From contig NZ_WKJP01000001.1 in the NCBI RefSeq assembly GCF_009674585.1, positions 62,001 through 126,000 of the forward strand: DNA of 64,000 bases, read 5' to 3'. The notes beneath the pieces were generated by a model. That model had not been told where the DNA came from and did not search any database. It saw only the letters and a list, made by a program, of their open reading frames with translations. The stretch comes from Haloferax marinisediminis. Lineage in GTDB: Archaea; Halobacteriota; Halobacteria; Halobacteriales; Haloferacaceae. The position numbers and the translations under genes are program-made. How positions within the stretch are numbered: the first letter of the stretch is position 1; the number at the start of each line of letters is the position of its first letter. Positions 51,237 through 62,028 of this stretch are shown one piece after another.

Positions 51237-51607
51237 ATAGTCGCCTCGCGAGCTGTGCAGTCGGCCGCGACATTGGTGTCGGTGAAGCCGTCTTCGACTA
51301 CGAGTTAGTCGTCAGTGGGCACACCCCTCAGCAGTTGTCTGTACACTCTGCTGGTGGCCACCCAACTTTGTGAGTTTCAAGTTAGAGAATTTTATTCACT
51401 AATGCGATAAACCCCAGTGAAATCGCTAATGTGGGTGGTTTCACATACACACACATTATCTAAATTGATAATGCCTCGTTATGTTTATGTCTAGAAATAT
51501 GGTATGAAGCTCAGTGATTAGCTGGAGTAGTCTATCTGGCTGACACTGCCCTGGTGACTCGTTCACCACAATTGGGCGACTTGTCGTCCACTCACTACCC
51601 AACTTAC
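51237..51607. other. AT-rich intergenic boundary of the conjugative region
   Basis: About 370 bp with lower G/C than the surroundings. It contains a GTGAAA/TTTCAC inverted repeat (51417-51422 and 51439-51444) and repeated CTAATG words, but no gene, tRNA or clear attachment site. The promoter of the conjugative operon should lie here. An AT-rich stretch near 51478-51500 is a possible TATA region. Confidence 0.45.
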
Positions 51608-52048
51608 ATGACGCATACAAACTCTGCAGTCGTTGGAGGTACAGATCCATCTTCTGTCCCCACCACACCAGCAGCAACTCGCTCGATTACGCACCGAGTC
51701 GTCACGCACGGCTTCATCGGACTTGTCGTCCTCAGTTTCATCGCGGTTGAGCCCGCACTTGCCCAAGAGAGTATCGTCTGCGAAGCAGAGCGTCTTCCGA
51801 CGATGATTTCAGGCTTCTTTCAACTCACGACAGGGATTGGAATTGTCGGCTTAGTCGTCGTTTGGCAAGCGAATTCGCTTACAGAGATGTTTACACTGAG
51901 CCCAGACCAGCGAGAAAAGATCAAGCGACAAAAGCGAACCGCGCTTAAATCGACGCTGACGTTAGTTCTGCTTGGTCCGCTCTACACGGTTGCCGGCAGT
52001 ACAATGGGGCTTCCACTTGCCTCCTGTGTCGACCTCATTCCTGTGTGA
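51608..52048 (+). CDS. Two-helix membrane protein, VirB2-like pilin candidate
   Basis: A 146-aa protein. A Thr/Ser-rich N terminus precedes a hydrophobic stretch ending in a likely cleavage site (FIGLVVLSFIAVEPALAQES). Two more helices follow (GFFQLTTGIGIVGLVVVWQA and STLTLVLLGPLYTVAGSTMG) separated by a basic loop (SPDQREKIKRQKR). Signal plus two helices with a short positive loop is the shape of VirB2/TrbC pilins, but no sequence motif proves it. It is the first gene of the conjugation-like operon. An in-frame GTG at 51554 could add 18 residues. Confidence 0.55.
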   Translation: MTHTNSAVVGGTDPSSVPTTPAATRSITHRVVTHGFIGLVVLSFIAVEPALAQESIVCEAERLPTMISGFFQLTTGIGIVGLVVVWQANSLTEMFTLSPDQREKIKRQKRTALKSTLTLVLLGPLYTVAGSTMGLPLASCVDLIPV

Positions 52049-52057
52049 CCCGCGGGC

Positions 52058-53725
52058 GTGACTCGCCACACCAACTACGCTGTTGTATTGGTCACTGTAT
52101 TCTGGGCTGTCTGCGTGATGGCCGGGACAGTTGGAGCAACAGCGCCAGAGAATACGACCCCGACACCACCGCAATCGAACGCCACACTGTGGTCTGACGA
52201 TGCCGATTCGTGCATGAATACGACAGACTACATGGCCACATACGACGTCGACGCTGTGCCGTCGACTGTTGACCTGCTTTCGACCTGCACGGACGTCGTA
52301 TATGACAGTCCCCCCACAACTGGACAGGCAAACGCTCACCTCATCAGCGGCATCAAACCGGGTGACAAAACGACGTCCATCGCTCCGCACACGGCGACAG
52401 TGAACTCGAGCGGGCGACTTCGCGATGTTCATGCGTCGCTTGTTGCTGTCTCACCATCGACGCTCGTACATCAGACAGAATCGCGTACCGTTCGCTATGC
52501 CCGACCCAACGGGACGATATACGGGTTCGTCGACTACCGACTCGATACAAAAACCGTTGAGAAGGAGAACACGACCATTTCGTGGTCTGTTCTCTCTCAC
52601 GGAGTCGACGCTGTCGAACTCGTCACTGAGAACCGGACTCTCGGTTCGACGACTGGAACACAGACGCCACGATTCGAGTATCAGAATCTTGGTCTGGGTC
52701 GGACACAGGTTGTGTTGCACGCGACGGTAACTGCACAACTCAAGAAGACCGTCACTGTCGAGACGAACGAATCCACGGAAACGACGAGCGAAGTGATCTC
52801 AGAGCGGATTACAGTCAGCGAGTCGATTCCTGTCCACATCACAGAGCCGGCAGCGAGTGTGGATGTCGTTGCATATCCGGACGGTACAGACGAAGTCCTC
52901 CTTTCAACCCCTACTCCGTGGAGTCAATACACTGTTGAGGGGCACCCAGACCTCCAAGTCCAGAATGTCTGGGAGTTCTATACCGCTGGTGACCCAGCCT
53001 GGGAGACGCTCGTCTCTCGGACGTCGACAACGACCGACCGAGTCCACACTCGCCACCGACCGCTCGTTGTCCATGCCGTCCCAACGACTGGCCATCCACA
53101 GGTCGACGAACAGTGGGGTTCACTCTCGATTCAGGACGTTTCTGGACAGTGGGTTGACTCGGCCCCCACTGTCGATTCAAACGTCACTGTCTCTCCAACG
53201 GCGTATCAGCGACCAGTACGCCTTCGCCTCCGCCATCCGTCGACCTCGGCAGTTCGACTGACTGGTATCGTTTCTGGAGGGGAGACGACGATCAAACTCC
53301 CGCAAACTCCGCCCGTCGCACAGCAGCCTGCACTGTCGATTAGGGTTGTGTCGCAATCGACGACCGAGGCGACGTTGCGTGTCACGCTTCGTAACAACAT
53401 GACCGGGACACCGCTTGCTGTTGGGCCGACCACATCGAATCACAGTGCGGGCGTACTCACAGTGGGGGAGCAGCCTGTCGCCCTCAATTCATCCGGGAGT
53501 GCGACCGTTGTTGTGACGACCCCTGGCGTCTACACAGCTGTCTTCGAGCCAACACCGTGGGTGCCTGGTCAACAAGCGTACACATCAGCCGACGCAACGG
53601 TTGCATGGCACCCACTCATCTCGACACCTGGACTCACAGCAGTGGGGTGGGACATTTTCCAGCTTGCAATTCCGATCGGACTCGTCCTTTTTGCAGGGCG
53701 GCACCTCGGCGCATTCCTCTCATGA
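52058..53725 (+). CDS. Large exported surface protein of the conjugation cluster
   Basis: A 555-aa protein with an N-terminal signal (AVVLVTVFWAVCVMAGTVGA), a long Thr/Ser/Val-rich beta-type exoplasmic region with many Asn-X-Ser/Thr sequons (for example ENTTP, NSSG, ENTTI, NHSAG), and one C-terminal helix (IFQLAIPIGLVLFAGRH). It lies between the pilin-like and channel-like genes, so it may be a pilus or mating-surface component. No known domain is recognised. GTG at 52058 starts 10 nt after the previous stop. It overlaps the next small frame by 4 nt. Confidence 0.65.
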   Translation: MTRHTNYAVVLVTVFWAVCVMAGTVGATAPENTTPTPPQSNATLWSDDADSCMNTTDYMATYDVDAVPSTVDLLSTCTDVVYDSPPTTGQANAHLISGIKPGDKTTSIAPHTATVNSSGRLRDVHASLVAVSPSTLVHQTESRTVRYARPNGTIYGFVDYRLDTKTVEKENTTISWSVLSHGVDAVELVTENRTLGSTTGTQTPRFEYQNLGLGRTQVVLHATVTAQLKKTVTVETNESTETTSEVISERITVSESIPVHITEPAASVDVVAYPDGTDEVLLSTPTPWSQYTVEGHPDLQVQNVWEFYTAGDPAWETLVSRTSTTTDRVHTRHRPLVVHAVPTTGHPQVDEQWGSLSIQDVSGQWVDSAPTVDSNVTVSPTAYQRPVRLRLRHPSTSAVRLTGIVSGGETTIKLPQTPPVAQQPALSIRVVSQSTTEATLRVTLRNNMTGTPLAVGPTTSNHSAGVLTVGEQPVALNSSGSATVVVTTPGVYTAVFEPTPWVPGQQAYTSADATVAWHPLISTPGLTAVGWDIFQLAIPIGLVLFAGRHLGAFLS

Positions 53726-53847
53726 GTATGAACTTCAATCACAGACCACCAGATCCACAGTCGGCACGACTAACGCACAGCTTCAGACCTCGATGCGAGC
53801 CTCACCCCGCCAGACGAGTTGCAGGGTCTCGGAGGTACGATGGCTGA
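53722..53847 (+). CDS. Candidate 41-aa coupled ORF
   Basis: This frame starts with ATGA overlapping the surface-protein stop (MSMNFNHRPPDPQSARLTHS) and ends with a TGA overlapping the start of the VirB6-like gene. Overlaps at both ends suggest translational coupling and a real gene. The product is basic and without hydrophobic helix. It could instead be only a coupling frame that carries ribosomes to the next gene. No homologue is known to me. Confidence 0.4.
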   Translation: MSMNFNHRPPDPQSARLTHSFRPRCEPHPARRVAGSRRYDG

Positions 53848-54958
53848 ACTCTCACTTGCAGAGCTTGGGAGTGAATGGTTCAACGATATCCTTACTGCAG
53901 TCACCGGGTGGCTCCAACAGGGCATCGCTGAGGGGTACAACCAACTGACGCAAGCAGCATTCGGAACACCAACCCCTGAGACGGGAAGTGTCCTGGGTGT
54001 TGGGACCCCCGTCAACGAACCGTGGGTCTCACTTCACGACACACTCGTGGCAGGCGAAACCACATTCCTTGCACTGTTGATTCTGGTCATCGCTGTCCAA
54101 GCGCGGAATACCATCCGCGTGTTCAATATCGGAAATCCACTGACCGCACGAGCAACCTCACAATCTGCATGGATTGGCGGTGCATTCATCGTTCTGTGGT
54201 ACTGGATTGCAGCGGCCTCGCTCACCCTTGTTGATGGCCTCACCATTCTCCTATTGCCACCAGTCGAGAGCGTGGGAACACTTGTCGCTGATCTGCTCAT
54301 CGTGACGATTACAAACCCCATTCTTGCCTTTGGATTGGGTCTCGTCGGTGCAGTCGCCATGTGGGTCTTACAGGCGTTGTTCATTGTTCGTGACCTGCTT
54401 ATCTTCGGCTTCGTCTACGCCATGCCGTTTGGCCTCGCAATCGCGTATTCGAACATTCCCGTCGTCTCTCGCCTTGCAGCCTCGCTGTGTCGTCGCTTCA
54501 TCCCACTGCTCGTGTTTCCGCTTCCGGTTGCACTGCTGTTTGGGGCGTACGACCTCGTCCTCACATCCGCGCTCGACGTTGGGCTACTCCCTGTCTCTGC
54601 ATTTGCACGCTACCTCGTTGGAGTCTCGCTCCCTGTGATTTCGGTGTACGTCGTCTGGCGACTCTTCACCGATGTCGCACCGAAGACGACTCGTGTTGTC
54701 CGCCGGACCGCTGGCACCGCTGCAACCGTTGGAACGGTCGTCGGTGCCGGTGTCGTCGGTGGGCCAGCAAGCGCGACGACTGTCGCGAAGGTCGGTGCTC
54801 GTGCCGCAGCGATCCGCGGTGTCGAACACCGGATTGGAGATTCCAGTCAGGGCTCACCACAGTCCAGCACTCGCAATGATAACATCGCCTCCGATGCCCA
54901 CGGCCAACGCGGCATCCCCTCGTACCGCCGAACTGAGAACGATCCTGGATATTACTGA
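53840..54958 (+). CDS. VirB6/TrbL-like polytopic channel protein
   Basis: A 372-aa protein with about six to eight hydrophobic helices (for example TFLALLILVIAVQARN, IGGAFIVLWYWIAAASL, LLIFGFVYAMPFGLAI, LLVFPLPVALLFGAYDL) and a hydrophilic tail with basic residues (VVRRTAGTAATVG). VirB6/TrbL proteins form the inner-membrane channel of type IV secretion. The shape and position between a pilin-like gene and VirB4 support this, not a strict motif. GGAGG lies 5 nt before the ATG at 53840. The stop overlaps the next start (TGATG). Confidence 0.65.
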   Translation: MAELSLAELGSEWFNDILTAVTGWLQQGIAEGYNQLTQAAFGTPTPETGSVLGVGTPVNEPWVSLHDTLVAGETTFLALLILVIAVQARNTIRVFNIGNPLTARATSQSAWIGGAFIVLWYWIAAASLTLVDGLTILLLPPVESVGTLVADLLIVTITNPILAFGLGLVGAVAMWVLQALFIVRDLLIFGFVYAMPFGLAIAYSNIPVVSRLAASLCRRFIPLLVFPLPVALLFGAYDLVLTSALDVGLLPVSAFARYLVGVSLPVISVYVVWRLFTDVAPKTTRVVRRTAGTAATVGTVVGAGVVGGPASATTVAKVGARAAAIRGVEHRIGDSSQGSPQSSTRNDNIASDAHGQRGIPSYRRTENDPGYY

Positions 54959-56061
54959 TGTCAAACGATACACCTGCAGAACGACGACTCATGAAGACAC
55001 TCGGTGAAGAGGCTCGGATTCCCATCCTCAACATCGACGAAGGAGACCTGTACCCCATTATTGGCTTTCCAATCGCAGGGGTGTTCATTGCGGGATTGGT
55101 CGGCATCGACTCACTGTTGTGGCCACTCGGTCTCGGTGGGCTCGTCAGTGGCCTGTTGACCGTCTACGCAACGCCCTCACATCGAACGACGACTGAGTGG
55201 CTGTCCGACCTCAGTCGCCATTATTTCGCCCGGCCATCGACAACGAATGCATACTCTTCAGATGTGAGTGCCGCTGGGAACGATTCGGCGTCACATGTCG
55301 GCGACTACAGTCCGTTCACACCAGATGAACGAACGCAAGACCTCACCCACGTCGAACACGCGTGGCCCGGTGCGGGAGCGCTCGAACGCACTGATGGCAC
55401 GATGGTCGGCATGGTCGAGCTCATCCCGTCGAATATGGATTTTGCGATGTCGGGCGATTGGGCACAACGACAGGCCATTGCCGAAACGTTCGCGAATAAC
55501 GAACTTGACTTCCCACTCTCACTCCACGCGACGACGAAACCGTTCCCAGTCGACCGACTCGTCGAGCGTATCGATGAGCGACTCACTGACGAAGATGTCC
55601 AGCAAAACCCTGCGTTCGAGAGACTACTGGCTGAATATCGAGAGGCACGTCCGAAGGAGATGGCTGGAACCCAGGAGATTCGGTACTACCTCGGTGTCGA
55701 AGTCTCTCCGTTCGAAGTCTATCACGACTCTACCGACGAGCAGACGCCACTCGAACGACTGACGAAGATTCCATTCCTCGGCCTCGTTATCACACCGTTC
55801 GTCACGCGGCGTGAGCGACTTACCGAGGGTGAAGTTCGCGCTCGATTGTTCGATGCGGTCGAAGCGCGCTGTCGGACCCTCGAAACAGAGTTCATCGGAA
55901 AACAACATGGCTGGGCCGCTCGTCGGCTCCCAACGACTGAGCAGTTCCTGCTCTCGGTCGAATTCTGGAATGGCTCGGGCCACGAGTATGGGGCTCCAAA
56001 TGAGAGTGTTCGGTCAGGTCCAGTACTTCGACAGAGCACACGAGAGGAACGAGATGCATAA
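54958..56061 (+). CDS. PrgI-like / VirB4-N-like membrane protein
   Basis: A 367-aa protein with two hydrophobic helices near the N terminus (IIGFPIAGVFIAGLVGI and LWPLGLGGLVSGLLTVY, about residues 35-70), like PrgI/VirB3, then a long soluble part (MVGMVELIPSNMDFAMSG, DFPLSLHATTKPFPVDRLVE) similar in style to the N-terminal domain of VirB4. No Walker motif is present. Fusion or splitting of VirB3 and VirB4 is common in conjugation systems, and the ATPase gene follows with an 8-nt overlap. It probably docks the ATPase to the membrane. Confidence 0.6.
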   Translation: MSNDTPAERRLMKTLGEEARIPILNIDEGDLYPIIGFPIAGVFIAGLVGIDSLLWPLGLGGLVSGLLTVYATPSHRTTTEWLSDLSRHYFARPSTTNAYSSDVSAAGNDSASHVGDYSPFTPDERTQDLTHVEHAWPGAGALERTDGTMVGMVELIPSNMDFAMSGDWAQRQAIAETFANNELDFPLSLHATTKPFPVDRLVERIDERLTDEDVQQNPAFERLLAEYREARPKEMAGTQEIRYYLGVEVSPFEVYHDSTDEQTPLERLTKIPFLGLVITPFVTRRERLTEGEVRARLFDAVEARCRTLETEFIGKQHGWAARRLPTTEQFLLSVEFWNGSGHEYGAPNESVRSGPVLRQSTREERDA

Positions 56062-58102
56062 TCTCTCCGCGTTACAGGTGGGTGAAGGGTTCACGCCAGT
56101 GCCACTCACCGAGGTGGTGTTCGCGATTGCACTTGGGTTCCTCGCTGGTGTCATCGTTGTTAGTGTCTGGGCACGAAGAAGCAGCTCTCCCGAGTCATTC
56201 GACCCAACCGCAGTACTCGATCCATCCACGCTGGAAGCCGCATCCAACGAGATGTCCATCCTCGAAGCGGCCGACTCACTCCACGCTGATACTGTCGCAC
56301 CGGCCGCGATTGAGTGGGACACTCGCGCCGCTCGTGTTGGTGAGCAATGGACGACGACGCTCTACCTCGCGTCATATCCAGACTATCCCAAAGACGGCTA
56401 TCTGAACGAGCTGTTCAACCTCACCGATATCGAGTTCGACTGCACGATCCGACTTCATCCCAAGAACCAGACGCGTGCTCGTGATGAGCTCCAAACGCTC
56501 GCAGACAACTTGCAGGTTGATGCGAAGCTCGAGCAGACCGTTCGTGGGTCGTATCTCCAAACGCGCGCTGATGAAGCAACTGCGACGTACACTGCAGTCG
56601 AGGAAGGTCAGCATGTCTTCTCTCAAGCGATGTTTCTGACGGTTCGTGCGGAGACACGCGACGAGCTCCGTGAAGCTGTTCGAACGGTCAAACGACGACT
56701 CCGAGACCATCCTGCGAATCTCACACCGAAGACGGCAATTTGCGCGCAGGACCGCGGCCTCCAAGCAGCATCACCCCTCGGACCAAACCCGTTCGACGAG
56801 GACGTAGTTGCCCTCGGTGGCGCTGTGGGTGCATTGTTGGCGTCGCCACACAACCCAACGATTCTCGAACCAGATGGTGTTGAAGTCGGGATTCATCGAC
56901 ACAACGATAGCCCAGTGGTGGTCGACGCATTCGCTCGTGAGAACGGCTACGCGATGTTCACCGTCGGTGACCCTGGCTCTGGGAAGTCTTTCGGTGCGAA
57001 GCAGAACTTCATCCGATCGATTTCGAATTCGAACGACCGGATTGGGATCATTCTTGAACCACTCAATAACTGGACTGGCGTTGCCGAGGCACTCAACGGC
57101 CACCGGATTACTGTTGGTGGGAGTATGGGGCTGAACCCACTCGAAATCAAACCGATGCCAGCGCGCGTCCAACAGACACTCGGCGATGACGCGAGTCCGT
57201 TCAATGAGAAGATAGACAGCGTTCTGAGCTTCCTCACCAATTTCTTCTCACTTCGGGGAATCCACCTTGGCGACCGTCGAACCACACTCGAACTCGCGAT
57301 TAGCGAGGCCTATCGTCGGAACGGAATTACTGATGACATCGCCACCCACAGCAACGAGAGTCCGACGATGCGGGATGTCCTCGACGTACTGACTGCACTG
57401 TCTGAAACGCCTGAGGAATTCGTCGTCCGGACATCTGTCGAAACCGAGAAGCTCGAAGCCGATGCTGCCTGGCTCATCGACCAGCTTCGCCCCTTCGCTG
57501 AAGGAGGCCGATACGAGAATCTCGGTCGGCAGACCGACTTCGAGATCCGCGACGAGAACGTCATCTATCTCGACCTCGGCCAGCAGGAAGGAACCGTCGG
57601 TGGGAGTACGAGTCTGCTTATGCAGTTGCTCATCTCTGTTGTCTACGAACGAGCGAAAGAGACCGACAAAGAGGTTGTCTTCGTCATCGACGAGGCTCGC
57701 TACATCATGCAAGACACAGAGAGCCTGTCGTTCCTCGAGACGGTGTTCCGCCATCATCGGCATCACGACCTCTCGGTTCGACTCGTTACCCAGACCGTCG
57801 ACGAGTTCTTCCAGCACCCTGAATCAGAAGCGATTCTTGACCAGTGTGCTATCAAGCAGTTCCACCGTCTCGACGGCATGGACGAACAGTGGGCGAATGA
57901 GTTCGGACTGAACCACGCCCAGATGCGGTTCGTTCAAGATGCCGTTCCTGGGTCCGACCGACTCGGCTACTCACAGGCACTCGTCGGCCTCGATGGCGAC
58001 TGGCGCGGTATCGAAGTGCGAGCGATGCCGTACGAGAAGGAGGTCATCGACTTCGACCCGAGTGATAGCAATCGTACACAGAACTCACTCATGACTAACT
58101 GA
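56054..58102 (+). CDS. VirB4-family conjugation ATPase
   Basis: A 682-aa motor ATPase of the HerA/FtsK-like VirB4 group, which energises assembly of the type IV secretion channel. A membrane helix at about residues 15-37 (EVVFAIALGFLAGVIVVSVW) is followed by an N-terminal domain. Walker A is VGDPGSGKSFGAKQ (about 308-321) and Walker B is VVFVIDEARYIM. The arginine-finger region HHRHHDLSVRLVTQTVDEF is typical. The ATG at 56054 lies 8 nt inside the preceding gene. The open frame reaches 55811 but overlaps that gene. This is the anchor gene for calling a conjugative element. Confidence 0.88.
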   Translation: MHNLSALQVGEGFTPVPLTEVVFAIALGFLAGVIVVSVWARRSSSPESFDPTAVLDPSTLEAASNEMSILEAADSLHADTVAPAAIEWDTRAARVGEQWTTTLYLASYPDYPKDGYLNELFNLTDIEFDCTIRLHPKNQTRARDELQTLADNLQVDAKLEQTVRGSYLQTRADEATATYTAVEEGQHVFSQAMFLTVRAETRDELREAVRTVKRRLRDHPANLTPKTAICAQDRGLQAASPLGPNPFDEDVVALGGAVGALLASPHNPTILEPDGVEVGIHRHNDSPVVVDAFARENGYAMFTVGDPGSGKSFGAKQNFIRSISNSNDRIGIILEPLNNWTGVAEALNGHRITVGGSMGLNPLEIKPMPARVQQTLGDDASPFNEKIDSVLSFLTNFFSLRGIHLGDRRTTLELAISEAYRRNGITDDIATHSNESPTMRDVLDVLTALSETPEEFVVRTSVETEKLEADAAWLIDQLRPFAEGGRYENLGRQTDFEIRDENVIYLDLGQQEGTVGGSTSLLMQLLISVVYERAKETDKEVVFVIDEARYIMQDTESLSFLETVFRHHRHHDLSVRLVTQTVDEFFQHPESEAILDQCAIKQFHRLDGMDEQWANEFGLNHAQMRFVQDAVPGSDRLGYSQALVGLDGDWRGIEVRAMPYEKEVIDFDPSDSNRTQNSLMTN

Positions 58103-58141
58103 GCAAATAGAGGTAACTCCCTCGCAGTCTACTACTCAGAT

Positions 58142-59569
58142 ATGACTGCGTCTCTCCGGACGGTTGTTGTTGTCGTCCTCGTCCTTTTCGCGGGTTGTAC
58201 CGGTGGTGGGTCGCTCGATGTGGGCGAGTCACCTGGTCAACCAACGACTGCAACAGAGGCAACAGCAGCGCAGACCACGACTGCGGCCGCATCTCCTAAC
58301 GGAACGCTCGAGGTCCACTTCATTAACGTCGGGCAATCGGTCAGTACGCTCCTCGTCGCACCGAATGGTGAGACGATGCTCATCGACTCTGGTGATTTCC
58401 GTGACGATGGTGAGCACGTCCTCGCGTATCTCCAGGCCCACGATATCCAGCGGTTGGACTACTTGGTGACCTCGCACGCTGACGCAGACCACATCGGTGG
58501 AAACGCAGCCATCATCGAGTATTACGAGACACAGGCGAATGGTGTGGGTGCAATCTACGACCCCGGTATCGCATCCACCTCACAGACCTACGCTGCATAC
58601 CTCGATGCCGTCGAAGAACACGACGTCCCACTGTACCGAACACAAGCCGGTGACCAGATTTCGATGGGGCTGGTGACGGCAACAGTGCTGTCTCCGCCTG
58701 AAGGCTACCTTGCGAGTGAAGACAGAAACGAGAACAGCATTGTTCTGATGACGCAGTTCGGGTCGACACGGTTCTTATTCACAGGTGATGCCGAACACGA
58801 AGCTGAAGAGTACCTTATCGACACGTACGGTTCGAATCTGCAAGCGACGGTTTTGAAGACCGGCCACCACGGCTCGAAAGGGAGTACAAGCGAGGAGTTC
58901 CTTCAGGCTGTCCAGCCCAAGGTCGCGGTTGTTTCGAGCGACTACGACTCACAGTACGGCCACCCGAATGAGGAGACGCTCGAACGATTGGATGCACAGT
59001 CAATACCGACGTACTGGACCGCAACACACGGTACGATTGTCTTTGCGAGTAACGGCGATCAAGTGAGAATCAGCACGCAGCAAGCGGCACCGACGCGCCC
59101 AATAGAACTCCGTGACGGAACTGCAATTGAACCTGGGACGGAGCCTGACGTGACTGTTCGAACCGAAATCACGGCGGGTGGGAGTCTGACGACTCTCACG
59201 CCGGTTGCGACTGATGGTGGAACAGACACGACGGACGCTTCGCTTGCTGTTGTGGAAGTCCATGCAGATGCAGCTGGGTCCGATACTGAGAATCTGAACG
59301 ACGAGTACATTGTCTTCAAGAATACCGGAAGCGAATCACTCGACCTCTCGGGATGGACAATCTCCGATGCATCTGGTCGGACGTACACCGTCCCTGATGG
59401 CACGACACTGGCTGCGGGCGCAACCATCACACTTCACACCGGGTCTGGAGCCGACACGTCGACTGATCTCTACTGGGGCTCAGGTTCTGCTGTCTGGAAC
59501 AATGATGGCGATACTATCACCGTACTGAATAATACCGGTGCAACCGTACTTGAGGAGACGTACGCATGA
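58142..59569 (+). CDS. Lipoprotein metallo-beta-lactamase with C-terminal lamin-tail domain
   Basis: A 475-aa exported protein. The signal ends in the lipobox LFAGC, so it is probably anchored outside. Residues about 55-310 form a ComEC/Rec2-type metallo-beta-lactamase domain with the metal motif TSHADADHIGG, then TGDAEHEAE and KTGHHGSKGSTSEEF. Residues about 365-475 form a lamin-tail domain (EYIVFKNTGSESLDLSGWTI), often linked to extracellular nucleases. It lies 39 bp after virB4. It may cut DNA at the cell surface during transfer or uptake, which is inference. Confidence 0.85.
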   Translation: MTASLRTVVVVVLVLFAGCTGGGSLDVGESPGQPTTATEATAAQTTTAAASPNGTLEVHFINVGQSVSTLLVAPNGETMLIDSGDFRDDGEHVLAYLQAHDIQRLDYLVTSHADADHIGGNAAIIEYYETQANGVGAIYDPGIASTSQTYAAYLDAVEEHDVPLYRTQAGDQISMGLVTATVLSPPEGYLASEDRNENSIVLMTQFGSTRFLFTGDAEHEAEEYLIDTYGSNLQATVLKTGHHGSKGSTSEEFLQAVQPKVAVVSSDYDSQYGHPNEETLERLDAQSIPTYWTATHGTIVFASNGDQVRISTQQAAPTRPIELRDGTAIEPGTEPDVTVRTEITAGGSLTTLTPVATDGGTDTTDASLAVVEVHADAAGSDTENLNDEYIVFKNTGSESLDLSGWTISDASGRTYTVPDGTTLAAGATITLHTGSGADTSTDLYWGSGSAVWNNDGDTITVLNNTGATVLEETYA

Positions 59570-59850
59570 TTCCAGACGGGACCTACACCGCGACAGTCGA
59601 CCGCTTCGAAGACGACCTGGCAGTCTTACTCGTCGAAGAAGACGGCCGCGATATCGACCAGCTCGTTGTCGACCGCGACGACTTGCCGTGGCGTGCAAGA
59701 AAACAAAATTCAGTCCTCACAGTCACCGTCTCAGATGGGGAGTACAAGAACGGGACGTACAAGCCAGACGAGACAGAAGAACGAACCGAAGCCGCTCAGT
59801 CACGGTTTGACCGACTCTCGCGTCGGCCACCACAAGACGACGAGTCGTAA
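59566..59850 (+). CDS. DUF3006 family protein
   Basis: A 94-aa protein with the DUF3006 pattern MIPDGTYTATVDRFEDDLAV and LPWRARKQNSVLTVTVSDGE. DUF3006 proteins are small beta-barrels usually encoded next to ComEC-like metallo-beta-lactamase genes, as here with an ATGA overlap. The function is unknown; a partner role is likely. Confidence 0.82.
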   Translation: MIPDGTYTATVDRFEDDLAVLLVEEDGRDIDQLVVDRDDLPWRARKQNSVLTVTVSDGEYKNGTYKPDETEERTEAAQSRFDRLSRRPPQDDES

Positions 59851-59868: not shown

Positions 59869-60798
59869 TCACACCCGCTCAGTGAGTTCGTAATACCTCG
59901 CTCTGAGTGTTGGGACCGTTACGTCTGCCGTTGTCGCGAACTCCGCTTGGGTCTGCTTCCCGCCGTGTTGTTTTGTCGCGAGATACAGACAAGCCGCTGC
60001 CACACCCATGGGATTTCGTCCGTTCGTAATCCCATCGTCGTCAGCGAGTTCTGCGAGTTCGTACGCACGTGCTTGGATCGCAGATGAGACGCCGCAGTCC
60101 GATGCAAGCCGTGGAACGGCCGTCCGTGCAGTCACAATCTGTGCGTCGATTCCCAGTTCGCTGTTGAGGACACGATACCCCGTTCGAACCTGGATGACGG
60201 TGCACCGAGCGACGTTTGCAATTTCCGCTTGTCGGCGCGGGAGCCCACGCGCCCGGCACGTCGCATACAGACTTCCTGCAGCCATCATCTCGAGCGAACG
60301 TCCGCGAATGAGGTCCTGCTGTTGTGCCCGGCGGTACGTCTGACTCGCCTCTTCGACGACACTGTACGGGAGGTCGAGGGCACTTCCCATCCGTGCGATT
60401 TCTTGGAGGGCAGTCGCGAGGTTCCGCTCTGCTTTCGACCCAAACCGCGCACGGCGATGTTCACGGCGAAGTCGGTGAAGTTGTCGCTGCTTTTCTGACG
60501 ACACCCGCTGGCCGTTCGCATCACGATTGTAGCCGATTTCTGCAGAGACGCCGCGGTCGTGACGAGTGGGAGTGAGTCGGCCTCCAGTTCGTCGTGTTGG
60601 AACTGGGTCGTCATCGAACACGCGTGGGCCGTGGGTGTGGTCGATGTAGTAGTGGTCGACGATGAGCCCACAGGCTTCGCAACTGGTTTCGCCGCCGTCC
60701 GTTGCGAGCCTCCCGTCGCACTCCGGGCAGTCAGTGGCATCAATTGATTTCCCGCACGATTCGTCGAACGTTCGTTCGTAGATTTCTCTCAGTGACAT
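59869..60798 (-). CDS. tfb: Transcription initiation factor TFB carried by the mobile region
   Basis: A 309-aa TFB. The N-terminal zinc ribbon is CPECDGRLATDGGETSCEAC (about residues 24-44), followed by the B-reader/linker and two cyclin repeats (about 110-200 and 205-305). Repeat features include LGLPRRQAEIANVARCTVIQ-type helices (split by family numbering) and GRNPMGVAAACLYLATKQHG. Haloarchaea have several TFBs that pair with TBPs to steer promoters. One on an integrated element may direct the element's own genes. The ATG at 60798 was chosen over 60834. It shares a promoter module with two neighbouring genes. Confidence 0.9.
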   Translation of the reverse strand: MSLREIYERTFDESCGKSIDATDCPECDGRLATDGGETSCEACGLIVDHYYIDHTHGPRVFDDDPVPTRRTGGRLTPTRHDRGVSAEIGYNRDANGQRVSSEKQRQLHRLRREHRRARFGSKAERNLATALQEIARMGSALDLPYSVVEEASQTYRRAQQQDLIRGRSLEMMAAGSLYATCRARGLPRRQAEIANVARCTVIQVRTGYRVLNSELGIDAQIVTARTAVPRLASDCGVSSAIQARAYELAELADDDGITNGRNPMGVAAACLYLATKQHGGKQTQAEFATTADVTVPTLRARYYELTERV

Positions 60799-60824
60799 GC
60801 GTTCTGTGTGGCGCGCTACTGCAA

Positions 60825-60854
60825 CGCCCCGCACCCTTGTGGGGCGAACAAAAC
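60825..60854 (-). promoter_or_regulatory. Shared promoter module, copy A (tfb)
   Basis: On the plus strand CGCCCCGCACCCTTGTGGGGCG (60825-60846) forms an inverted repeat, with CGAACAAAAC next to it, a weak TATA on the minus strand. The module lies 27 nt upstream of the tfb start. It is copied upstream of the next two genes. Confidence 0.7.
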
Positions 60855-60882
60855 TGCGGTCGGCTGGTTGTCTGAAGGGTCG

Positions 60883-61116
60883 TTAGTTGTTGGTCGGCCT
60901 GCTCGCTATGCACACCGCGTCGAACGCATCCTTGGACGCGTGTTCCTGACGGCACTCCGTACACCGCCAGAATCGACGACGGTCATGGTCGAACGCTGCA
61001 AGGTCTGCGAGTGAGTCAGTAGTCGACGCTCGCCACTCGGTGACGACGACGAGTTCGTGACCCAGTTCAGTCCGCTCGACGATACTCCCGACCCGTTGGG
61101 TTGTGTCTGTACTCAT
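60883..61116 (-). CDS. Small CxxC protein, paralogue of the SWIM-protein N terminus
   Basis: A 77-aa protein. GHELVVVTEWRASTTD and RRRFWRCTECRQEHASKDAF with a later Cys match residues of the neighbouring 177-aa protein (GHDLVRITEW, RTRFWRCRKCGQERTKKSEF). It therefore seems to be a paralogue reduced to the N-terminal zinc-knuckle part. No known family is recognised. It sits between tfb and the SWIM gene on the same strand, each with its own copy of the promoter module. Confidence 0.65.
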   Translation of the reverse strand: MSTDTTQRVGSIVERTELGHELVVVTEWRASTTDSLADLAAFDHDRRRFWRCTECRQEHASKDAFDAVCIASRPTNN

Positions 61117-61137
61117 TCGGAATCAGCGAGGCACTGC

Positions 61138-61170
61138 CGCCCCGCACCCGTTCAGGGGGGCGATAAAATC
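61138..61170 (-). promoter_or_regulatory. Shared promoter module, copy B
   Basis: CGCCCCGCACCCGTTCAGGG with GGGCGATAAAATC forms the same inverted repeat (CGCCCC at 61138-61143, GGGGCG at 61157-61162) and a TATA-like GATTTTATC on the minus strand. It lies 22 nt upstream of the start at 61116. Confidence 0.75.
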
Positions 61171-61184
61171 TCTCGTGGGACACT

Positions 61185-61718
61185 CTATGACCGAATTCGG
61201 AGTCTCGTATCCCGATCGCACGTCGCAAATCGCCCATTCGGTTGAGGGAGGAGACGCGTCCGAATTTCGAAGATGACACGTCGAATGTGCTTGCACTCAA
61301 CACCACGTTTCCGATGGTCTGGACACGAACACGTGCCCGCATGGACGTCAACTTTGTACGTCTTCCCGCTTGACGAAGCAGCCCTGTAAACGGGGCCGAC
61401 ATCACCGAACCGAACGTCCATCTCTTCGGTGAGTGCTTTCCACGTCCGTGATTCGTCGATGGAGTAGCCGCCATCGCTCAATAGTGTCTGACCGTCGGTG
61501 ACCGGACACGATTCACGGAACTCTGATTTTTTGGTCCGCTCTTGGCCACACTTTCGGCACCGCCAGAATCGCGTACGGTAGCCATTGAGGTCAGAAAGTT
61601 CGATATCGTAGTCGGTCGGTTCGCTGCCTGGCACCCATTCAGTGATGCGGACAAGGTCGTGACCGGTGTTCAGGGCTATGGGTAACCGCTGTCGTTCGTC
61701 GTCGGTTGAGACAGTCAT
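61185..61718 (-). CDS. SWIM zinc-finger protein
   Basis: A 177-aa protein. The N-terminal half has a zinc knuckle (FWRCRKCGQERTKKSEFRES with a later Cys). The C-terminal half is a SWIM finger: YKVDVHAGTCSCPDHRKRGV then ECKHIRRV (CxC...CxH pattern). SWIM fingers bind DNA or proteins and occur in MULE transposases and Sws1-type recombination proteins. A single-domain SWIM protein on an element may regulate or assist transfer, which is inference. It shares its N-terminal part with the 77-aa neighbour. Confidence 0.75.
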   Translation of the reverse strand: MTVSTDDERQRLPIALNTGHDLVRITEWVPGSEPTDYDIELSDLNGYRTRFWRCRKCGQERTKKSEFRESCPVTDGQTLLSDGGYSIDESRTWKALTEEMDVRFGDVGPVYRAASSSGKTYKVDVHAGTCSCPDHRKRGVECKHIRRVIFEIRTRLLPQPNGRFATCDRDTRLRIRS

Positions 61719-61745
61719 AAGGTTCTTTCAGGGGGTCACTCGTGT

Positions 61746-61778
61746 GCGCCCCCGCACCCTTGTGGGGGTGATAAAATT
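61746..61778 (-). promoter_or_regulatory. Shared promoter module, copy C
   Basis: GCGCCCCCGCACCCTTGTGG with GGGTGATAAAATT carries the same GCCCC...GCACCCTTGTGGGG core and TATA-like TTTTATC on the minus strand. It lies 28 nt upstream of the start at 61718. The three modules differ mainly in a few hairpin bases. Confidence 0.75.
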
Positions 61779-61788
61779 GTCACCTCGT

Positions 61789-61859
61789 AGAAGAGCCACC
61801 TGAGCAACCTGTCCAGGTCGTCTCAGTAACACTTGACATCGAGAACCGGTAGCTCTTCT
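61789..61859. repeat. Inverted repeat AGAAGAGC/GCTCTTCT
   Basis: AGAAGAGC (61789-61796) and GCTCTTCT (61852-61859) are perfect inverted copies about 55 bp apart, between the SWIM gene and the divergent gene at 62029. The rest of the roughly 310-bp gap shows nothing else clear except promoter copy C. Confidence 0.45.
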
Positions 61860-62028
61860 GAGCAGATGTTACGACTGGTATCTCTGATTTCCGTCGACCC
61901 CCCGGCCATCCACTGATGCATCGCGAACAGCGTCTCGATTACCAGCAGATTCGTACTCAAACCGCAACGCACCAGCGCCTGATGCACGCATCAACTCGGC
62001 ACTCCCCTACACGACGCGCCTCCCACCG

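Follow-up and report, generated by a model that had tools for sequence, protein, structure and literature searches.

A conserved TATA-adjacent module precedes ArdC, TFB and zinc-protein genes on haloarchaeal mobile elements and may mark an establishment regulon

The window analysed here is a stretch of 64,000 nucleotides from Haloferax marinisediminis (contig NZ_WKJP01000001.1, positions 62,001 to 126,000 of the forward strand), and it contains an element that spans about 51.5 to 63.0 kb. Based on Pfam matches, the plus strand encodes a transfer-like block (51554-59850) with a 164-aa protein, a 555-aa protein, TrbL_3 (53819-54958), a 367-aa protein, a VirB4-like protein (55811-58102), an MBL-fold/LTD protein and DUF3006. 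This block is collinear across several Haloferax species. The MBL-fold protein, which has a lamin-tail domain (58142-59569), looks secreted; it is paired with DUF3006, and its place beside the TFB gene is conserved in Haloferax elements. After DUF3006 the genes for a TFB, a 77-aa protein and a SWIM-finger protein lie on the other strand, followed by a gene for a 308-aa protein.

The element-type TFB (59869-60798, minus strand; 309 aa, N-terminus MSLREIYERTFDE) contains two TFIIB repeats (PF00382, 130 bits) and a weak zinc ribbon that scores under the Pfam cut-off. The SWIM-finger protein (61185-61718, minus strand; 177 aa) has an N-terminal CxxC zinc-ribbon part and a SWIM match with an E value of 0.0043, below the Pfam cut-off. 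Its relatives share 64-81% identity within the genus and about 50-56% on plasmids, with CxC...CxH conserved. Its structure model is of low confidence (pLDDT 49), and a PDB sequence search returned no chain matching it. The 77-aa protein (60883-61116, minus strand) is a paralogue of the N-terminal part of the SWIM protein. A first-pass annotation had counted two zinc proteins here; both are of the CxxC type, but they are not independent genes.

Each of the three genes has its own copy of an upstream module, identified by reading the sequence and by pattern scans. Copy 1, the TFB promoter (60825-60853, minus strand), reads TTTTGTT-CGCCCC-ACAAGGGTGC-GGGGCG; the CGCCCC...GGGGCG part occupies 60825-60846, the TATA-like TTTTGTT 60847-60853, and the TFB ATG is at 60798. 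Copy 2, the promoter of the 77-aa gene (61138-61168, minus strand), reads TTTTAT-CGCCCCCCTGAACGGGTGCGGGGCG, with CGCCCC...GGGGCG at 61138-61162, TTTTAT at 61163-61168 and the ATG at 61116. Copy 3, the SWIM gene promoter (61747-61776, minus strand), reads TTTTATCA-CCCCCACAAGGGTGCGGGGG, with CCCCC...GGGGG at 61749-61768, TTTTAT at 61771-61776 and the ATG at 61718. The module-to-ATG distance is about 21-30 nt at all three genes. The shared module thus lies where the first-pass annotation had put it, with start distances that agree; the TATA-like TTTTATC that it described corresponds to TTTTAT in copies 2 and 3, but copy 1 has TTTTGTT instead. Since the 77-aa and SWIM proteins are paralogues, a single duplication may lie behind both of their promoters; that of the TFB is independent.

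The consensus, with up to 3 mismatches, matches the window four times against 0.57 expected (the fourth match has 3 mismatches). Across the 3.5-Mb genome, the strict core CCCC-N3-8-GGGTGCGGGG has three matches, all of them the window modules, and a reversed control pattern has one. No unrelated chromosomal gene of this genome was found with the module. The window scan found only the three minus-strand sites and no module before genes of the transfer-like block.

A probable deletion junction lies at 61778-61945, between the SWIM promoter and the 308-aa gene. Haloferax marinum has about 10.2 kb there (locus L095, 839-11072), including a module-fronted ArdC gene and a gene for a 983-aa protein. 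No ArdC-like match was found in the window. As the sequences read, the window element is most likely a deletion derivative of a larger module-bearing element, with three members kept; an insertion in H. marinum is a possible alternative.

The general form of the module is TTTTATnn-CCCC(C)-N2-5-GGGGTGCGGGG, about 35-45 bp long and overlapping the core promoter, with the ATG mostly 18-46 nt 3' of it. Among 245 distinct strict modules, the T-run is mostly 7-9 nt 5' of the C-run, the C-run is 4-6 nt, the spacer 2-5 nt and the G-run 3-5 nt, followed by TGC in 210 modules or TGA in 22 and a final G-run of 4-6 nt. The bases 5' of the T-run are rich in G. What stays constant is the directional GGGTGC/AGGGG; the C-to-G and TATA-to-motif spacings each vary by several bases. 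TGA, GAGA and GAA are recurrent loops. Arm flank positions 1 and 2 are complementary beyond shuffled sequences (7 of 2000 shuffles each, after collapsing). The G/C hairpin proposed in the first-pass annotation survives as a partial inverted repeat, but predicted single-stranded DNA folding clearly beats shuffles in one of five sequences only (z of -2.8; the other four range from -0.3 to -1.2). The archaeal TATA box lies about 25 nt from the transcription start, so the motif would fill the TATA-to-start interval, where RNA polymerase opens the DNA. This is the placement that the first-pass annotation had expected, and it appears suited to contact by a repressor or an initiation factor.

The module precedes a recurring set of genes. 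Clusters of the downstream proteins include ArdC-like proteins (86), a DUF6166 type (41), TFBs (30), DUF6610 (28), two kinds of SWIM proteins (13 and 12), a 126-aa family (9) and smaller groups; ArdC is over-represented in these counts by the deliberate collection of ArdC loci, a bias that homology-first tests avoid. In such tests, the module precedes all 30 genes whose products best match the N-terminus of the window TFB (TFBs of the REIY-FDE type), in 29 cases without a mismatch; none of 600 random windows gives a mismatch-free match. DUF6735 genes have it in 30 of 30 cases when the upstream sequences are read, with a TATA variant GTTGTT; a TTT filter alone misses this variant and counts just 3 of 30. 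DUF6610 genes have it in 28 of 30 with up to 2 mismatches allowed. No module was found in 30 TrbL upstream regions, a weak control as TrbL is probably operon-internal. Members of the 126-aa MATLQAATT family lie directly 5' of DUF6735, each gene with a separate module (loci L076, L078, L085, L088, L091, L093, L094, L104 and L106, the last of which reads mostly N). Modules also occur 82-108 nt 5' of genes that look like IS200/IS605-type TnpB, beyond the usual distance (L083 3672, L107 9277 and L099 9767).

ArdC is the best functional anchor in the set. In ArdC loci of named haloarchaea, 59 of 80 fit a relaxed pattern, and the rest are mostly visible variants (TGAGGGG; CGCC...GGCG arms). The module-fronted genes on related elements match ArdcN (PF08401, 24.2 bits against a cut-off of 22.6) and an IrrE-like M78 domain (25.1 bits against a cut-off of 22), and H230, E231 and H234 are invariant in the alignment. 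They thus combine ArdcN with a zincin HExxH, as expected of the ArdC antirestriction family. Across the same 80 loci (L116-L195), a 115-aa gene lies upstream in 53 and an 84-aa gene neighbours ArdC in 42; downstream are a SWIM protein of about 290 aa (37 loci), then orc1/cdc6 (42) and PolB (24).

Orientation is uniform. None of the 90 loci with at least two modules has them on mixed strands, a result independent of how loci were chosen. Within 100 kb on the same contig, DUF6735 and DUF6610 lie on the strand of the nearest TrbL in 59 of 61 cases; both exceptions are 50-73 kb away, on contigs with several module genes. DUF6735 shares the strand of the TFB in all 38 cases within 100 kb. Of 117 loci, 77 have SWIM-type ORFs on the same strand as the module and one has them on the other. 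The non-module neighbours of ArdC (orc1/cdc6, PolB and an HTH gene) mostly run in the opposite direction. The Haloferax-type element is an exception in that its modules point against the TrbL/VirB4 block, so coherence with the transfer strand is not universal.

Of 292 genomes from the class Halobacteria, 175 contain the strict pattern, with at most 19 copies per genome and a strong strand bias. Hand-summed table totals, which include overlapping matches, are 187 for the haloarchaeal genome set against 24 for the reversed pattern, and 45 against 12 for 242 other genomes of the phylum, where one genome contributes 8 of the 45. Archaea outside Halobacteria are near background. In 2.29 Mb of element loci there are 274 matches, against 3 in the reversed sequence; these loci were chosen for carrying the pattern or ArdC, so the number speaks to position and orientation and gives no unbiased density. 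An ORF starts 8-75 nt downstream of 252 of the 274. The module occurs nearly always on plasmids and integrated elements of salt-loving archaea. A few pattern matches in other genomes have no TATA context, for example Haloarcula CCCCATATCGGGTGCGGGG sites, and no TATA-plus-module match was found in the IMG/VR viral contigs scanned.

Several plasmids illustrate the arrangement. NZ_CP119795 is typed MPF_T yet 'non-mobilizable', has an annotated VirB4, and has modules at ArdC, DUF6166 and other genes, spread over about 30 kb and all on one strand. An unannotated TFB under a module was found there through the module, in an annotation gap (L197 42986-43904), and a frameshift interrupts it. A 51.7-kb plasmid, NZ_CP101165, has an ArdC gene with a variant module and no TFB match in its first 50 kb. 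Haloarcula marismortui pNG600 has modules 5' of 126-aa, DUF6735 and DUF6166 genes, with an annotated type IV transfer gene nearby, and Halobacterium salinarum pHS2 has a TFB with a perfect TGA-type module. Like the TrbL_3 and VirB4-like genes of the window, TrbL lies near module genes elsewhere. The transfer block of two plasmids (L196 29618-31097 and L198 26920-31503) is headed by genes with an exonuclease VII subunit annotation and by one for a 55-aa 'DNA-binding' protein, which has the same sequence on both. The 55-aa protein was considered as a regulator and set aside; its sequence looks like that of a histone-fold protein.

Among described systems, the closest are bacterial or belong to archaeal viruses. 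The CUP regulon of the IncN plasmids pKM101/R46, controlled by ArdK (Delver and Belogurov 1997, as summarised in PMC6289460 and PMC5371602), also has upstream promoter/operator copies before several leading-region operons in one orientation, with antirestriction genes included, and the same two summaries describe it as an aid to plasmid establishment in a new host. As summarised there, it has bacterial promoters and a known repressor, whereas the module has archaeal TATA promoters, an unrelated sequence and a TFB among its members. EGeRS1 and EGeRS2 of the pLS20 family resemble the module in that a conserved sequence 5' of ardC is repeated in front of other operons, which are variable and clustered, with the conjugation operon separate; EGeRS1 differs in its length of 400-600 bp and in a mechanism described there as unknown, and EGeRS2 in having a ribbon-helix-helix repressor (PMC8708921). 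In Sulfolobus viruses, a consensus early promoter with a conserved archaeal TATA-region sequence precedes many small anti-defence genes, a set that includes the proposed repressor Aca8; these differ in being viruses and in having another motif (PMC11065993). The intergenic repeats of halovirus HF2 are likewise repeated promoter sequences on a haloarchaeal mobile genome, but they are viral repeats of 58 and 29 bp (PMC8707807). The module elements have one repeated regulatory sequence per element, antirestriction genes (on related elements) and clustered single-orientation members, which supports a CUP/EGeRS-like mode of working, with class membership incomplete. In the open-access literature we found neither the motif described in an archaeal promoter nor an archaeal establishment regulon; most subscription papers lay outside this search.

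We suggest that the module probably serves as a conserved promoter-operator for an establishment regulon that is shared across haloarchaea and carried on plasmids and integrated transfer elements. Every member gene or small operon would have its own copy, consisting of a T-rich TATA box and then CCCC-N2-5-GGGGTGC/AGGGG with flanks that sometimes covary, and the members would include ArdC, the element-type TFB, the SWIM and CxxC zinc proteins, DUF6735, DUF6610 and DUF6166. We propose that expression is induced by entry and then shut off: on arrival of the element in a naive cell its module promoters may become active, and an element-encoded regulator, bound to the G/C-rich element, may shut them down afterwards. 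The result would be a brief burst of anti-defence and host-takeover proteins; for members other than the ArdC homologues, we infer the anti-defence role from this scheme. Two bacterial precedents are that ArdC of R388 is required in the recipient and not in the donor (PMC7213743), and that leading-region genes are early, anti-defence and encoded on the T-strand (PMC11541004). The missing ArdC in the window counts against the establishment reading. The TFB, SWIM and CxxC proteins are candidate cognate regulators. As a first guess, the regulator is an element-encoded repressor, possibly the SWIM or CxxC protein, with the TFB as the main alternative; we lean to a repressor because of the position of the motif and the bacterial and viral precedents. 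No evident universal repressor gene was found among the conserved ArdC neighbours, and the variable C-to-G spacing would not favour a rigid dimer operator.

The element TFB may instead be a true alternative initiation factor with its own promoter class (TATA plus downstream GGGTGCGGGG), which in a sigma-like manner activates itself and module genes across Halobacteria with no repressor. We consider this possible but unlikely. The TFB is the most constant regulatory member, given the 30 of 30 module-fronted relatives, and for 38 of 46 DUF6735 genes such a TFB lies no more than 100 kb away, on the same strand every time; the directional motif and the G-rich bases 5' of the T-run also fit. Module TFBs, including that of the window, form one group, separate from the six other TFBs encoded by the H. 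marinisediminis genome (100/100), in a tree with an outgroup of one genome's TFBs only, a grouping compatible with a repressor too. Against a dedicated factor stand the first 50 kb of NZ_CP101165, without a TFB match despite the variant-module ArdC, the frameshifted TFB of NZ_CP119795, and a TATA-to-motif spacing that varies by several nucleotides. First expression of the TFB on entry would also require another factor.

A far less probable reading is that the repeat, like Frpo, folds in incoming single-stranded DNA and allows transcription before second-strand synthesis. The uniform orientation, as in the T-strand-encoded leading regions of bacteria (PMC11541004), and the recurrent loops agree with it, but four of the five predicted folds are near the shuffled level and the TATA box lies outside the stem. 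Archaeal TBP binds duplex DNA, which also argues against it. Spread by copying, in which the motif would belong to a small repeat (MITE-like, or copied gene starts) and have no shared regulation, seems more doubtful still. The 77-aa gene, which duplicates part of the SWIM gene, agrees with it, but the TATA-CCCC-GGGTGCGGGG core is kept across families whose upstream, spacer and UTR sequences are different. The fixed ORF orientation, narrow ATG spacing and partly covarying flanks point to selection. The first-pass annotation had read the locus as a private three-gene circuit of this element that switches conjugation. The strict copies of the genome are indeed confined to the element, but the module, searched in other haloarchaeal genomes, precedes not only TFB and SWIM genes but also ArdC, DUF6735, DUF6610 and DUF6166 on plasmids and integrated elements. 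The window element also looks like the remnant of a larger module-bearing one. A private circuit is thus the least probable of these readings, and a main role in switching conjugation is disfavoured by the same gene set and, as a weak control, by the TrbL upstream regions.

If the module marks an establishment regulon, it gives a sequence handle for this regulon across haloarchaeal plasmids, and it could guide the prediction of anti-defence genes that are not yet characterised (DUF6735, DUF6610, DUF6166, SWIM and others), as promoters have been used in archaeal viruses. It also suggests a reason for the extra TFBs on haloarchaeal plasmids, a long-standing puzzle that is directly testable on the module-bearing replicons pNG600 and pHS2 of culturable species. 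Haloarcula-type genomes (loci L057, L058, L060, L063, L066 and L069) have many near-identical CCCCAGTCGGGTGCGGGGCGGTCCAGTGAGAG copies 5' of various ORFs, which perhaps form a separate sub-regulon.
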